NCBI GenBank assembly: GCA_937625935.1
Contig: OW569347.1
Span: 124,001-188,000, forward strand
Direction of reading: 5' to 3'
Origin: Tetramitus jugosus
Lineage: Eukaryota > Heterolobosea > Eutetramitea > Acrasida > Vahlkampfiidae
DNA length: 64,000 nt
Position 1 is the stretch's first letter; each line of letters opens with the position of its first letter. The notes beneath the pieces were generated by a model that had not been told where the DNA came from, did no database searches, and was given only the letters and a program-made list of their open reading frames with translations. The position numbers and the translations under genes were made by a program. This document shows positions 6,521 through 47,338 of this stretch, piece by piece.

Positions 6521-6738
6521 TTCCAGTTCTGAGTCTTCGCTTTTGATTGAGTTGTGTGTATTTTCCGATTGAAGTATTGAAAAACTCCGTGTTTGTCAAC
6601 ATTTACAATCATCCATCAAATCCAAATGTCCTTGTGTGGGGATCGTTCGCACACTCCCCCTTAACTTCCAACCCGTTTCTCTCACTGAAAAAAAAACCAT
6701 CATCCATATATTACTATACTGTACAACATATCAAAACT

Positions 6739-7728
6739 ATGAGAAATATTATTATTGCTGTTCTCGTTGCTTTGTTTTTGGTTGCTTTTGTAGCAGCTGC
6801 TGATAACTCTGCTTGCTTGAATGCTTGTGTCTCCTCTGGCTCTAGCAAGAGTACCTGCAGAAAGCTCTGTACTTTGGTTGCCAAGAGTGAAGAAGAAGAA
6901 GAGGAAGACTGGAAGGTCTATGGTAACGCAAGCAACGGTGGTCAATGGAACGCTGGCTTTGAATGGACATCCAAGGACGACCAAGAAGAGATTGATGAAG
7001 AGCGCTGGAAGGTTCACGGAAACGTTGCCAACGGTGGAAAGTGGAATGCTGGTTTTGAATACAACTCCAATGATGACGAGGAGGAAATTGAAGACTGGAA
7101 GGTTCACGGTAACGTTGCCAATGGTGGTCAATGGAACGCAGGTTTCGAATGGACCTCCAAGGACGACCAAGAAGAGATTGATGAAGAAGACTGGAAGGTC
7201 TATGGCAATGCCGCAAACGGTGGCCAATGGCAAGCAGGTTTCGAATGGACCTCAAAGGACGATGCTGAAGAGATTGACGAAGAAGACTGGAAGGTTTACG
7301 GAAATGCTGCAAATGGTGGCCAATGGCAAGCAGGTTTCGAATGGACTTCCAAGGACGATGAAGAAGACTGGGTGACTGCTCAAGACGACGACGAAGAAGA
7401 AGACTGGAAGGTCTATGGAAATGCAAGCAACGGTGGCCAATGGAATGCTGGCTTTGAATGGACATCCAAGGATGACGAGGAAGAAGTTGAAGACTGGAAG
7501 GTTCACGGAAACGTTGCCAATGGTGGAAAGTGGAATGCTGGTTTCGAATGGACTTCCAAGGACGACCAAGAAGAGATTGATGAAGAAGACTGGTATGTCA
7601 ACGGAAACGTAGGCAACAATGGCTTCAATGCTGGTGCTGGTTACCAAAACGGTGGCTTCAAGGCAGGAGGTAACGTTGACAACAGAGGCAACTGGGGTGT
7701 CGGTGCTTCATACTCTGTTCGCTTCTAA
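6739..7728 (+). CDS. Secreted acidic tandem-repeat protein
   Basis: I start at ATG 6739 (329 aa) because a clean signal peptide begins there (MRNIIIAVLVALFLVAFVAAA). The frame is open upstream to 6547 without one. A short four-Cys segment (ACLNAC...STCRKLC) follows. Then come seven near-identical units of about 28-33 residues, each WKV[YH]GN, then NGG[QK]W[NQ]AGFEW and an acidic tail. One divergent unit and a Gly/Asn-rich end (GVGASYSVRF) finish the protein. The aromatic-Gly strand pattern suggests repeating beta structure on the cell surface or in a secreted coat, which is inference. An AATAAA lies at 7734, just after the stop. I recognise no named family. Confidence 0.85.
   Translation: MRNIIIAVLVALFLVAFVAAADNSACLNACVSSGSSKSTCRKLCTLVAKSEEEEEEDWKVYGNASNGGQWNAGFEWTSKDDQEEIDEERWKVHGNVANGGKWNAGFEYNSNDDEEEIEDWKVHGNVANGGQWNAGFEWTSKDDQEEIDEEDWKVYGNAANGGQWQAGFEWTSKDDAEEIDEEDWKVYGNAANGGQWQAGFEWTSKDDEEDWVTAQDDDEEEDWKVYGNASNGGQWNAGFEWTSKDDEEEVEDWKVHGNVANGGKWNAGFEWTSKDDQEEIDEEDWYVNGNVGNNGFNAGAGYQNGGFKAGGNVDNRGNWGVGASYSVRF
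6907..7587 (+). repeat. In-frame tandem repeat within the secreted protein gene
   Basis: Seven units of roughly 84-99 bases, opening with GACTGGAAGGT or a close variant and joined by GA-rich acidic linkers. Several units are nearly identical at the DNA level, which suggests recent duplication or gene-conversion-like exchange. One linker (near 7369-7402) is longer and reads WVTAQDDD. Confidence 0.9.
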
Positions 7729-39773: not shown

Positions 39774-40331
39774 TCAAATATTTCGCGACAACCATTCCAA
39801 TCCTTCGTACAGTCCTTCACCAGTCACTGCAGCACACGGCTGCACAAACCAATTCATATTCTTGACTTCGTACAGTCCCAACTGCTCAGTCATCTCCTGC
39901 ACACCCAACGCTCCATCCAAATCTTGCTTGTTGGCCAACACCAACAACACTACATCACTCTGTCTGTCCATCAACTGTTCATCATTGATCAATTTTTGTA
40001 ATTCTTCTGTTGCTTCCTGTAATCGATCCACATCTGCACTGTCCACCACAAAAATGACTGCATTGACATTCAAATAATAGTTGCGCCAACTGGGTCTCAT
40101 TCGCTCCTGTCCTCCCACGTCCCGTATCGTAAAATTGACCTTGTTGTAGGAGATGGTCTCAACGTTGAATCCAATGGTGGGTACGGTGGGTGGTACGTCT
40201 GCACCCTTGTTTTTGAGTTTGAGAGCGTAGAGAATGGTGGTTTTGCCTGATGCGTCCAATCCACACATGAGAATGGATGATTGTTTGTTTTTGAAGAGAT
40301 TACGAAATAGATTGGATAGTCTGTTTCCCAT
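39774..40331 (-). CDS. ARF: ARF-family small GTPase
   Basis: 185 aa. MGN at the N-terminus gives Gly2 for myristoylation and is followed by an amphipathic helix (RLSNLFRNLF). The P-loop is GLDASGKT at 24-31 (ARF1 has GLDAAGKT), switch I PTIGFNVET, switch II DVGGQE at 71-76, NKQD and CAAVTGEGL. The segment before switch I (NKGADVPP) is about two residues longer than in ARF1. ARFs recruit coats and lipid enzymes to Golgi and endosomal membranes. Divergence in switch II (MRPSWRNYY) suggests a lineage-specific paralogue rather than the main ARF1. Confidence 0.92.
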   Translation of the reverse strand: MGNRLSNLFRNLFKNKQSSILMCGLDASGKTTILYALKLKNKGADVPPTVPTIGFNVETISYNKVNFTIRDVGGQERMRPSWRNYYLNVNAVIFVVDSADVDRLQEATEELQKLINDEQLMDRQSDVVLLVLANKQDLDGALGVQEMTEQLGLYEVKNMNWFVQPCAAVTGEGLYEGLEWLSRNI

Positions 40332-40681: not shown

Positions 40682-43600
40682 TCAGTCACTCGTTTCAGGT
40701 TTGAGAGCCAACTCTTTGACTGATCCCAGATCCTTCATTTGAATGGGTCCTCTAAAGGTGGCATAGCTAGGAAGTGCTTGATTCAACCGTACAGCAGGTG
40801 ATTTGTCTCCAACAGAGGAGTTTGACATCACTCCCAGAGACGACTCGAATCCCAGGCTCAACTCTATATCCATCAGCGATCTCATCATTCGTCTGTTAAT
40901 TTGAATGATCGGTCTCTTGTCCTTGACATATTTAAAGGCTCTGGACAATGCCCACTGCTTACGCCTCATCATATATGCGACAATGAATGCGGCACTCCTG
41001 CCCACACCCAAGTGAGAATGAACGAGTACTGTATGACCCTTCTCAAAACAATTTTCGACATGCTGGTACAATTCATCAAAGCACTTGACCAGTGTAAAAG
41101 ATGGATCCAATCTTTGGAATCTGACATTCTTGTATTCGAACTTGCTCTGGTGGTAGTTTGGAGATTCCGCAGATAAGTTGACAATGTGCGTGATTCCAAA
41201 CGATTGTAGTTCCTTTACATTGGAGCTATTCCACTCGCTGCCGAGGAAAAGACGACGTGTTATTCTCGATGGAGGTTCCATTTGTCCCACAATCTTATCA
41301 ATCTGCAAATAGGTGAGATTCTGCTTCTCCGTCATTTTCATAGTGAGCTCTTTCTTTAGAACCTCCTTGATAGATGTTGTATCGACCCTGTTCAGATCTT
41401 TCTGTTCCTTCAATAGCTCCCACAAGCGGACGACAATCTCAGTTTCTTCAGGTTGCGAGATCATAGGACCATCAGAGTTTGTTGAATTATCCAAAATACT
41501 CAATAACTTATCTCTTGCCTTGTTGAAGCTAAAACTGACATACTTCATCACATCCTCACTATCTTCCAGAGATTTTCCTCTTCGATGATTTTGAGGCAGT
41601 ACTCTTTGAGATCTACTCTGAAAAATATTGGGCTTGTTTAACATTTCATTCTCTTGATGTTTTCTAACTAAAGCTCCCAAGTAAGCTCTGGAGGCCATCT
41701 GGATGGGATTGATTCCTTTCTGTTCAATGTACTTGGCAAAATCAGGATGTCGAACAGCAATATCCGCTAGTGTTTGCAATGCTAAAAATACGGAATCCTT
41801 ATTACTGTTGTTTATGAAGTGAATTAAGATATCTGGTCCTCCATCTCTCACAAAATTATCCAAGAGTTCCTTGTTATCAATGTTTGCAATTTGCTTTAAC
41901 AAAGAACAGCAATTAAGATGCAGCTCTATTCTATGACGAGAAGGTTGATCACATATAATCTTAAATAAACATTGGATCAATCCTTCGGAAACAAATTTCA
42001 ACGCTACTTCCTCATTCTTTGTCACTTCAATCAAAATTGAGAAAACTTGGTTTTTGTCTTGAACATATGGTGAGTTCAACAATATGTCGAAGTATTTGAA
42101 CTCTCCAATCCTAGATATTACAAGAGTGAGTGATGTCTTCTCATTTTTGTCTCCTATCATTTGAAGAAGTCTATTGAGAGCTATTTGAATCATGCTGTGC
42201 TTGTTCTCCAAATTGTAGTTACTTAAATCAATCATCGCGCAGAGTGAGTAAAACAACGAAGCATCATCCGTGTAGTTCTCGATGAAAAATGTTAATGTAT
42301 CCCACACTTTGTGCTTTTCCAGAAGAACATGATTTCCAGGATCAGAAGCTAGCTCCTTGATTTTTCTTGAACTTTCCCTCAAAATATACCATGGATTATC
42401 TTCCTTGACCCTTCTTTCAAATGCATGTAGTATTGTTTCAAAGGTAGGTCGATTTTTTGGATCATTACACGTGCATATCACTATTAGGTCTGTGAAAATC
42501 TGAGGCCACCAAGGAGGTAAGATGACATTCTCACCATTCAAAAGAGGTTCGCGTAACAGCTCGTATCCAATTGTATCATCTACTACAAAGTTAGTATCTG
42601 GATGTTCTCTCATATACAACAGCTCGAACAGCATAACACCGAACGAGAACACATCATATGTATAGTCGTAGTAAGTGATGTCCTCGTCAGTCATGCCTCC
42701 CATGATAATCTCTGTTGGCATGTAAAGTACAGTTCCATATCCCTGGGGTCCTTTAATTTTCTTCTCCAGTCCTTGTGTTATTCTGCTAATACCAAAGTCA
42801 GCCACTTTAATTGTTAGTTTATCGTCCACAAGCAAATTAAGGGGTTTCAAGTCCAAGTGCAAAATCGATCGATTGTGAAGGTAATTCATTCCGCAACATA
42901 TATCTTCTATCATTCGGGTAAATTGATTATCAGTTATGTTCATATTTTGCATAACATCATGTAAGCTCCCGTTGTCCATGTACTCAGTGACGAGACAAAT
43001 ATTGGGTAAACTCGTGCTCAATCCCATAAATAACAACACATTTGGATGTCGAAGACTCGACATTATGGAAGCCTCTTCTTTCAGTTTTCCGACAATCCTA
43101 TCCTTCTCTGTTTCATCCTCAACTATGGAAGCACTAAACTTCAATCTTTTGATAGCAACAAGTTTTCCCCACAACAAACCCTTGTACACTTCTCCAAAGA
43201 AACCCTCTGCTACTTTCTTCCCAAGTGTTAAATTTTCGTAAGGCACTTGCCATGGTTCAGTTCTATCTTCTATCTCCAGTTGTTGAGCATTGTTATCATC
43301 TCCATTCTTGTCCCTTGATCGTTTCACTGAGTGTTGTAGCGAACGCCTCACATCAGTTGTGAAAATTTGAATGTTGTCCCAATTAGGAACAACCCTTCTC
43401 ATACATGTGAAAACTTCTTCACAGAACTTTATCTGGTCGTCTTCCAAGGCGGTCAGTAAATGGCTAAAACTAGTCTGTAATCCTTGTGCTGCACAATTCT
43501 TGACCGAGCTAGAAATGTGATCAATCCATTGTTGCAACAGATCCTCTGTTTCAACAGAACATACTATAGTCCTTCCATAAGACTTAACCGTAAAACAATT

Positions 43601-43990
43601 TTCTCTTTTTTTGTGCCATTTCTGAACCTTTTGAACTTGATAGATTGAGCCGCTCTCAATGGTCATCATAGTCTTTTTATCCTTTGATGACTTGAATATC
43701 AATAACGCGTCTCCACTGAGAACCATATAACGCTTTACCCATGGCCTCAGTTGTGAAGTTGTAAGAAGTTGAAGGTTACCTTCAAAACTCTCTCTATCCA
43801 TCATGAGATTTCCTCTTGGAGTAGCAGATGGACTCAGCTTGAAATTCGCGGTAGAACACATATTGAGAAGAGAACTATTGGAGTAACTTCTTCTCTTGTT
43901 CACAATAGGTCGAAAAGATATAGAATCTACTGCATTTGGAATATTGTTACTCACAACAGGAGAGGATATCTCACTAGAAAACTCATCCAT
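40682..43990 (-). CDS. PH domain, TKL protein kinase and catalytically dead dual-specificity phosphatase in one protein
   Basis: 1102 aa, single exon. PH domain at about 69-160 (EGNLQLLT...WVKRYMVLSGDALLIF ... LLQQWIDHI). TKL-type kinase at about 254-530: glycine loop VAEGFFGEVYKG, VAIK with Lys281, HPNVLLFMG, HLDLKPLNLL with Asp380 (non-RD because Arg is Leu), DFG at 398-400. The usual APE reads PTE. Armadillo-like helices fill about 550-790. The C-terminal domain (about 930-1065) is a dual-specificity phosphatase fold, but the signature reads H-S-x5-R: Ser992 (codon TCT, 41015-41017) replaces the nucleophilic Cys. It should bind but not hydrolyse phosphoresidues, as in STYX. The kinase looks active. 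Confidence 0.88.
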   Translation of the reverse strand: MDEFSSEISSPVVSNNIPNAVDSISFRPIVNKRRSYSNSSLLNMCSTANFKLSPSATPRGNLMMDRESFEGNLQLLTTSQLRPWVKRYMVLSGDALLIFKSSKDKKTMMTIESGSIYQVQKVQKWHKKRENCFTVKSYGRTIVCSVETEDLLQQWIDHISSSVKNCAAQGLQTSFSHLLTALEDDQIKFCEEVFTCMRRVVPNWDNIQIFTTDVRRSLQHSVKRSRDKNGDDNNAQQLEIEDRTEPWQVPYENLTLGKKVAEGFFGEVYKGLLWGKLVAIKRLKFSASIVEDETEKDRIVGKLKEEASIMSSLRHPNVLLFMGLSTSLPNICLVTEYMDNGSLHDVMQNMNITDNQFTRMIEDICCGMNYLHNRSILHLDLKPLNLLVDDKLTIKVADFGISRITQGLEKKIKGPQGYGTVLYMPTEIIMGGMTDEDITYYDYTYDVFSFGVMLFELLYMREHPDTNFVVDDTIGYELLREPLLNGENVILPPWWPQIFTDLIVICTCNDPKNRPTFETILHAFERRVKEDNPWYILRESSRKIKELASDPGNHVLLEKHKVWDTLTFFIENYTDDASLFYSLCAMIDLSNYNLENKHSMIQIALNRLLQMIGDKNEKTSLTLVISRIGEFKYFDILLNSPYVQDKNQVFSILIEVTKNEEVALKFVSEGLIQCLFKIICDQPSRHRIELHLNCCSLLKQIANIDNKELLDNFVRDGGPDILIHFINNSNKDSVFLALQTLADIAVRHPDFAKYIEQKGINPIQMASRAYLGALVRKHQENEMLNKPNIFQSRSQRVLPQNHRRGKSLEDSEDVMKYVSFSFNKARDKLLSILDNSTNSDGPMISQPEETEIVVRLWELLKEQKDLNRVDTTSIKEVLKKELTMKMTEKQNLTYLQIDKIVGQMEPPSRITRRLFLGSEWNSSNVKELQSFGITHIVNLSAESPNYHQSKFEYKNVRFQRLDPSFTLVKCFDELYQHVENCFEKGHTVLVHSHLGVGRSAAFIVAYMMRRKQWALSRAFKYVKDKRPIIQINRRMMRSLMDIELSLGFESSLGVMSNSSVGDKSPAVRLNQALPSYATFRGPIQMKDLGSVKELALKPETSD

Positions 43991-45925: not shown

Positions 45926-47338
45926 TTACATCTTGTGAGTTTGGAGGAGACGCAATCCAACCTCGTCATAATCCTTCTTCTTCATCCAGAACTCTTCCTT
46001 GTCCTTCATGATATCAGCCAAGACAGCACCACCCAAGAAGACCATGTGCTTTCTTCTTGGAGGATCTTCAATCTTGAGCTTAAAGTTCTTCAAACGAGAC
46101 TCATCACCTCTCAACACCTTTTGCAAGTACAAATCCTTGATTTCCTTCTCCAATCTGGATGGGAGACCTGGATACATGGTTGTACCACCGGACAAGACAA
46201 TGTGCTTGTAGAACTCGGATCTCAAATCGATATCAGCACCCTGGATGGTATCAAACACCAACTCGTGCATACCCTTGCCTTCCTTATCGGCCAAAATAGG
46301 TTGGAAGAGAGCTTCAGCAGCCTCGAATCTCTCTGCACCAATCTTGATCTCTCTGCCATCAGGAAGAGTGTATGACTCAACAAGGACAGTAGTCTCCAAT
46401 GCCAACTTCTTCTCTAGTTGAATATCGTAGCCAACATAGCAAAACTTTTCCTTGATTAGTCTCACGGTTTCAAAATCAGCAGTACGGTTGAATGCATAAC
46501 CACGCAACAACATGAGCTTAATCAACAGGTTGGTAATGTCACGACCGGCCAAATCCAATCTCTGAACCAAGTGAGGCAGAGAATAACCATCGTACACTGG
46601 AACAACGTGAGTCACACCATCACCAGAGTCAACCACAACACCAGTCAATAGACCTTGTGCGTACAGGGTCAAAACAGCTTGAATGGAAACGTAGAGTCCT
46701 TGGAATCCATACTTTTCAAACATGGTCTCAATCATTTTTTCACGATTCTTCACAGGGTTCATTGGTGCTTCAGTCAACATGATTTGGCACTCCTTTGGAT
46801 CAACTTTCAATTTGTCCCAAGTGTAGTCCCACAAATGATACATGTCTTCCCAACTACGAATGACACCATTGGCCAATGGATAGGTAATTTCGAGGGCGTG
46901 TCTCAACTTTGCGCACTCATCACCAACCATAATGTCCTGCAATTGAACATCACCAATGCTTTCCTCATATCTGAGGATGGGTCTACCGACCATGGCTGGA
47001 AAGACGGCGGTAGGGAAATTGTCACCGGCAAATCCGCATTTTACAAACTATTTATTGTTGATGATGTAGTTGATTTGTGCGTATCATTGTTTTTTTTGTC
47101 AATAGTAGTAGTAGTCGTTATTGTTGTGGTGTGCATTGATGTGAAAATAGTGAAAAAAAAGATGAGTGATTGGTTAGCTTCTGATTGAAAGAATAGAGAC
47201 ACAGCTGAGTGATGGATGAAAATCATGTGATAGAGATCCATGATCTATGATTTGATCAACGCATCAATCAACTGAAAAAAAAGTGCAAGTACTTACACCA
47301 GTACCGTTATCACAAACGACAGTTCTTGCAGCTGGCAT
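45926..47338 (-). CDS. ARP2: Actin-related protein 2 (Arp2), two exons
   Basis: Exon 1 is 47297-47338 (14 codons, [14 protein letters not shown]), intron 47048-47296 (249 nt, GTAAGT...AATAG), exon 2 is 45926-47047. The 387-aa product has the Arp2 start [18 protein letters not shown], which crosses the splice. It then has [65 protein letters not shown] and [14 protein letters not shown]. Arp2 with Arp3 and five other subunits nucleates branched actin filaments for amoeboid crawling and endocytosis. Length matches the family (about 390 aa). Confidence 0.95.

Follow-up and report, generated by a model that had tools for sequence, protein, structure and literature searches.

What does a dual-specificity phosphatase (DSP) domain do at the C-terminus of a protein kinase when its catalytic Cys has been replaced by Ser? 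This question is raised by one gene in a 64,000-nucleotide stretch of the Tetramitus jugosus genome (contig OW569347.1, positions 124,001 to 188,000; hereafter, the window). The gene is an uninterrupted frame of 1102 codons from ATG to stop, and its product (P0001, the window protein) is organized as follows:

40682..43990, minus strand: open reading frame of the kinase-pseudophosphatase fusion, 1102 aa, with co-linear homologues P0002–P0005 and the paralogue L002
43502..43783, minus strand: PH domain, residues 70–163 (Pfam PF00169, 45.2 bits; cut-off 25.1)
42425..43231, minus strand: TKL-type protein kinase domain, residues 254–522 (Pfam PF07714, 159.1 bits)
41642..42385, minus strand: armadillo-like helical stretch, residues 536–783 (AlphaFold2 helices; weak profile and PDB matches)
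41285..41443, minus strand: DEK_C-like module, about residues 850–902 (profile-profile alignment with Slingshots; DEK_C in relatives)
40862..41251, minus strand: Slingshot-type dual-specificity phosphatase domain, residues 914–1043 (DSPc, 98.8 bits; cut-off 33.5)
41111..41113, minus strand: Arg960, aligned with the general-acid Asp of Slingshots (alignment; local model confidence lower, block mean 75)
40994..41020, minus strand: phosphate-binding loop HSHLGVGRS, residues 991–999 (sequence)
41015..41017, minus strand: Ser992 codon TCT, at the catalytic Cys position (sequence)

The union of a PH domain, a kinase, armadillo-like helices and a DSP domain in one protein, proposed in a preliminary description of the window, is borne out by three Pfam domains above cut-off and by the modelled helices, and the H-S-x5-R signature with Ser992 encoded by TCT reads as it had been claimed. 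In the AlphaFold2 model, the PH region forms beta strands between residues 69 and 145, followed by a helix, and the row of helices at 536–783 has a block pLDDT of mostly 85–94 up to about residue 740 and lower values beyond. This helical stretch matches PF25598 (ARM_PUB) at residues 542–744 with 24.5 bits, under the Pfam cut-off of 33, and weakly matches designed armadillo repeats in the PDB (E = 2.3e-4). A fold search with the whole model listed kinases in all of its best 50 rows. Among the neighboring minus-strand frames, those at 45926–46993 and 39774–40331 resemble, by eye, an Arp2-like actin-related protein and an ARF-like small GTPase, respectively, and a plus-strand frame at 6547–7728 of the window encodes a protein of repeated units (WKVYGNASNGGQWNAGFEWTSKDD) that looks secreted by eye.

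A search of the genome (26.3 Mb, 56 contigs) identified a paralogue, L002, on another contig, which is 49% identical to the window protein over residues 148–1054; its loop is identical, and its Ser is likewise encoded by TCT. The family considered here comprises 11 rows, namely the window protein, L002, P0002–P0005, P0044–P0047 and P0051. P0005 is AKO1_006924 of Acrasis kona, the nearest named relative, and P0051 bears the EukProt label “Rmarinus,” which we take to be perhaps Rhodelphis marinus. The sequences of P0044 and P0045 stop within the DSP domain, past the loop. A further protein, P0066, has a PH domain and a kinase, matches DEK_C with a score under the cut-off, and ends before any DSP, so that its Cys/Ser state is not scorable. 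Since three domains score above curated cut-offs and co-linear homologues show up to 58% alignment identity, the fusion is more than chance, and it is conserved in the relatives, in which its absence would have counted against the preliminary description. The expectation that orthologues would share the Ser held only in part: the nucleophile column contains Ser in 8 of the 11 rows (7 distinct DSP sequences), including A. kona, but Cys in P0044, P0045 and P0051. Both Cys and the general-acid Asp are kept in these three, which share the build of the window protein; thus, an active-type fusion exists, and a design that writes and binds a mark does not hold for the family as a whole.

The DSP domain had been likened to STYX, a comparison that gives way to kinship with Slingshot phosphatases. 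An hhalign comparison with Slingshots extended over residues 825–1045 (E = 2e-38), through the DEK_C-like module, and the stretch GQM-x-x-P-x-x-I ... LGSEWN is common to the window protein and Slingshots. The best PDB match of the domain is Slingshot-2 (2nt2; 103.4 bits), a chain that also has Ser at the nucleophile position; the STYX chain 2r0b reaches 49.9 bits, and membership in STYX was rejected. At the domain level, both Slingshot features were found, that is, a DSP closest to Slingshot and a DEK_C-like module directly before it. The Pfam cut-off for DEK_C (24.8 bits) is exceeded by P0044 (42.9 bits) and P0045 (42.5 bits), and lower scores were obtained for P0046 (24.5 bits), P0005 (20.4 bits), P0004 and L002 (20.3 bits) and P0051 (17 bits); the 8.4 bits in P0003 are not significant, and Pfam DEK_C gave no match for P0001, P0002 and P0047. 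The SSH N-terminal family (PF23040), which is listed for P0009 and P0016, is absent from the Pfam lists of all 11 family rows; thus, the domain is of Slingshot type and the protein is not a Slingshot proper.

The inactivity of this phosphatase, claimed in the preliminary description, is reinforced by a second loss that had been overlooked there. The column that we take to contain the Slingshot general acid is Asp in all seven Slingshots used (7 of 38 non-fusion matches) and in the three Cys rows. The same Asp is gone in six of the seven distinct Ser rows (Arg, Pro, Arg, Arg, Asn and Pro; L002, identical to P0004 there, was counted once) and kept in P0046. The phosphate-binding loop, described previously as intact in its GVGRS portion, does retain His, Gly and Arg in 11 of 11 rows, but one residue is Gly where all seven Slingshots (G-V/I-S-R-S) have Ser. 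In this fold, the loop Arg and Gly mainly serve phosphate binding. The predicted DSP fold superimposes on 2nt2 with an rmsd of 1.6 over 142 residues. The HCX5R signature and general-acid Asp of catalytic Slingshots are represented in the window protein by HSX5R and Arg960, and, as in a pseudophosphatase, catalytic residues are lost and the fold, as predicted by the model, is kept. With two catalytic residues gone and the phosphate cradle retained, the domain appears to be a pseudophosphatase, which may have retained the ability to bind phosphoresidues.

Altered DSP domains also occur elsewhere in this genome. When 30 of the 47 DSPc matches were taken as loci, the nucleophile position was Cys in 24, Ser in three (the window protein, its paralogue and L029) and Asp in two, and one was not read; among the 24 Cys loci, L026 is without the loop Arg and L011 without the His. 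L029 belongs to a second kinase and DSP fusion (G000:C49:88001-95600; L052:147-7154:-), with a length of 2335 aa if the first start listed is used, in which a PF00069 kinase is combined with DSPc and the loop (YSGKGLSRG) again has Ser for Cys. The loops of L025 (HDTFGVTHS), L033 (VDSSGISMS) and L026 (YCKNGTSLA, in a protein with an additional calponin-homology domain) are unusual, and the three are likely further pseudophosphatases. L011:292-2115:+ encodes a Slingshot-like DSP with the loop ACFMGMSRS, which keeps Cys and Asp; it is the top Cys-bearing match to the Slingshot profile among the 30 loci (147.5 bits), and its Pfam list is without DEK_C.

The kinase, by comparison with its relatives, is likely to be active, since Lys281, Glu306, Asp380, Asn385, Asp398-Phe-Gly (398–400) and Glu427 are invariant across the 11 family rows. 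The earlier statement that its key residues are intact stands for these positions but not throughout: the HRD motif is HLD in ten family rows (HRD is kept in P0051), Ala261 stands in place of the first G-loop glycine, and the APE motif is PTE in the window protein. The HLD and PTE motifs could indicate a dampened kinase. In the best 60 of 416 PDB matches, a chain named EGFR comes first and most others are B-Raf and CTR1. When the Acrasis kinase was used as the query, the named non-fusion proteins among the matches listed included plant STY/Raf-like, amoebozoan and Marseillevirus kinases. The Marseillevirus-type viral kinases (P0052, P0054, P0055, P0057 and P0058) were among the closer matches listed to the Acrasis kinase-armadillo query.

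As read from the sequences, the family is characterized by its architecture, the exchange of Cys for Ser, the loss of the general acid, the invariant loop His, Gly and Arg, and the existence of active-type fusions of the same build. A feasible model, towards which we lean on balance, is that a TKL-type kinase carries a C-terminal Slingshot-type phosphatase that has lost catalysis and kept its phosphate cradle, and that binds a phosphorylated partner unhydrolysed, tethering the kinase and shielding the mark. The PH and armadillo-like parts would probably position the kinase, which would phosphorylate a partner; the dead domain would then hold the phosphorylated partner without hydrolysis, like engineered Cys-to-Ser substrate traps. 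Such holding would tether the kinase to its phosphorylated product or substrate, and the held mark would be shielded from true phosphatases. In the consulted excerpts of PMC10211241, STYX is described as a competitor of an active phosphatase, and mutations that turn active enzymes into traps are reported as well. If writing and holding in cis is true, it would represent a compact way to prolong a phosphorylation mark and a natural counterpart of laboratory substrate-trapping mutants.

Alternatively, the dead DSP domain may be a fold-level scaffold or an autoinhibitory module for the kinase, which binds no phosphoresidue and keeps its loop for stability, a reading that we consider rather unlikely but in need of weighing. 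The loop is conserved above the domain mean (0.70 against 0.49), but values as high occur in 17 of the 127 nine-column windows when those that overlap are counted, for example at LGSEWNSSN and KYVKDKRP; thus, loop conservation alone is no proof of selection on the pocket. In addition, P0046 (RG) and P0047 (RA) differ at the position that follows the loop Arg, a change that agrees with decay as well as with selected binding. Against the scaffold stands the invariance of the loop Arg and Gly in all 11 rows, even though Cys has been lost in eight of them and Asp in most of these.

It is also tempting to see in the protein a single-chain cofilin switch of the LIMK-Slingshot kind, with ADF/cofilin as the substrate of the kinase and its phospho-form retained by the dead Slingshot-type domain. 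Cofilin is a target of Slingshot, and LIMK belongs to the TKL kinases. The link is attractive because of this action of Slingshots and because the genomic ADF/cofilin L039 begins MATGIKIND; another, L040, has ATGVKVND with no adjacent start codon in its open frame. Moreover, a six-frame search of the genome for DEK_C gave its sole match in the paralogue, so that no separate canonical Slingshot was seen. However, this search ignores introns, position 3 of L039 is Thr and not Ser, and the names LIMK and TESK are absent among the 120 matches listed (many of them unnamed) and among the best 60 of 416 PDB rows. A LIMK1 chain ranked 37th in a fold-search list populated by varied kinases, and the kinase tree described below had no LIMK row. 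Taken together, a cofilin switch seems improbable. Six further short ADF-homology proteins (L044, L045, L046, L048, L049 and L050), encoded at six genome sites, are very alike by eye, and most begin MTQTGI.

It is very doubtful that the DSP domain is still an enzyme, with Ser or another residue as the nucleophile or with an unusual substrate such as a lipid or other phosphates. The predicted preservation of the fold and pocket and the Asp retained in P0046 would be in keeping with activity, but Cys-to-Ser is the usual route to inactivating this fold, and Asp is lost in nearly all of the distinct Ser rows; the trapping mutations cited above point the same way. An error in sequencing or assembly, or a pseudogene in decay, readings for which no supporting evidence was found, has a negligible probability, because the Ser is shared with a paralogue on another contig and with relatives from other sources, a check set beforehand that contradicts an error, and because 1102 codons are open and the kinase residues are invariant.

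A kinase tree, constructed by a quick method from 46 rows (9 of the 11 family members, 31 of 111 other listed proteins including P0066, and 6 loci of the same genome; P0045 and L002 were dropped as near-duplicates), placed the kinases of the nine fusions and P0066 in one group (SH-aLRT 100). Holding the nine fusions together without P0066 gave a better score than the free tree search (AU p 0.80). A stretch of the C-lobe is 76 residues long in all ten of these proteins, and in the 36 other rows it measures 62–73 residues in 28 and 78–85 in 3, and is incomplete in 5. The grouping and the shared length favor, but do not prove, a single origin of the fusion in which P0051 has a share. A search with the DSP region of P0051 returned only itself and one Slingshot; therefore, P0051 and P0066 are the two proteins on which a wider spread of the fusion depends.

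The number of Cys-to-Ser events is compatible with several histories. In a full-length tree from which the nucleophile column had been removed, the Cys rows P0044 and P0045 grouped with Acrasis (61/85; 92/91 without P0051), and on the first full-length tree the minimum number of Cys/Ser changes is two. In a DSP-only tree that included the nucleophile column (10 fusions, 7 Slingshots and 12 DSPs of the same genome picked by score and length), the seven distinct Ser rows came together (90/85), with P0044 and P0045 adjoining. A constraint joining the Ser rows was not rejected (AU p 0.31); in the DSP tree, a clade of fusions and Slingshots (AU p 0.29) and one of the 10 fusion rows alone (AU p 0.31) were neither rejected nor shown. 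P0051 has a long branch in both trees. One loss of Cys, several losses, or loss followed by regain would all agree with these trees. The ancestral protein, we infer, most likely united a kinase with a Slingshot-type phosphatase that opposed it, and this eraser later became a holder; the Ser kept in several relatives suggests that a write-and-erase enzyme has turned into a write-and-hold one. Only tentatively can this be extended to an old eukaryotic family of TKL-kinase and Slingshot-type write/erase proteins, in which the eraser of heterolobosean-like lineages became a natural substrate trap, on one or more occasions, through the same Cys-to-Ser exchange that is engineered in the laboratory; the outcome would be a kinase that retains and protects what it has phosphorylated.

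Several known systems share parts of this design. The window protein resembles Slingshots (SSH) in its DSP, the preceding DEK_C-like module, the GQM...LGSEWN stretch and the match to 2nt2; unlike them, it is without the catalytic Cys, the general acid and PF23040, and has a TKL-type kinase and armadillo-like helices. With STYX, MK-STYX (STYXL1) and STYXL2, it shares a DSP fold in which the catalytic Cys is replaced, by Gly in STYX and by Ser in MK-STYX and STYXL2 according to the consulted excerpts of PMC8269279 and PMC10211241; those proteins, however, belong to another DSP subfamily, and the excerpts describe no kinase fusion for them. The kinase domain is akin by sequence to RAF/CTR1-type TKL kinases, from which the fusions differ in the longer C-lobe stretch (76 residues in the nine fusions used), the HLD motif and the fused DSP. 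The closest parallel in combining a kinase with a DSP in one chain is provided by the trypanosomatid “kinatases,” for which the consulted portion of PMC2175518 describes two pseudokinase domains, LRRs, an active DSP and CaMKK-like kinases; the same paper also mentions proteins with kinase-phosphatase architectures from Giardia, Tetrahymena and Dictyostelium. A Leishmania protein with one Pfam kinase domain, DSPc and LRR_8 appears in the consulted portion of PMC13210143. By contrast, the window protein has one intact-looking TKL-type kinase, a DSP whose catalytic residues are lost, and no LRR in its Pfam list, and none of the LRRs, pseudokinase domains and active DSP that define the trypanosomatid proteins was found in it. 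The fusion is not mentioned in the consulted portions of a review of bifunctional kinases (PMC9138534) and of the Acrasis genome paper (PMC11589745), and no kinase fused to a Slingshot-type pseudophosphatase was found among the open-access papers listed. Kinase-DSP fusions and Ser pseudophosphatases are already known, and in the window protein the pairing is reversed, with an intact-looking kinase and an apparently dead phosphatase. The fusion equips a kinase of a distant eukaryote with a module of Slingshot type, familiar from the control of cofilin, and offers a defined, testable case of an eraser becoming a reader, for which the Cys-bearing relatives of the same build are ready-made active controls.
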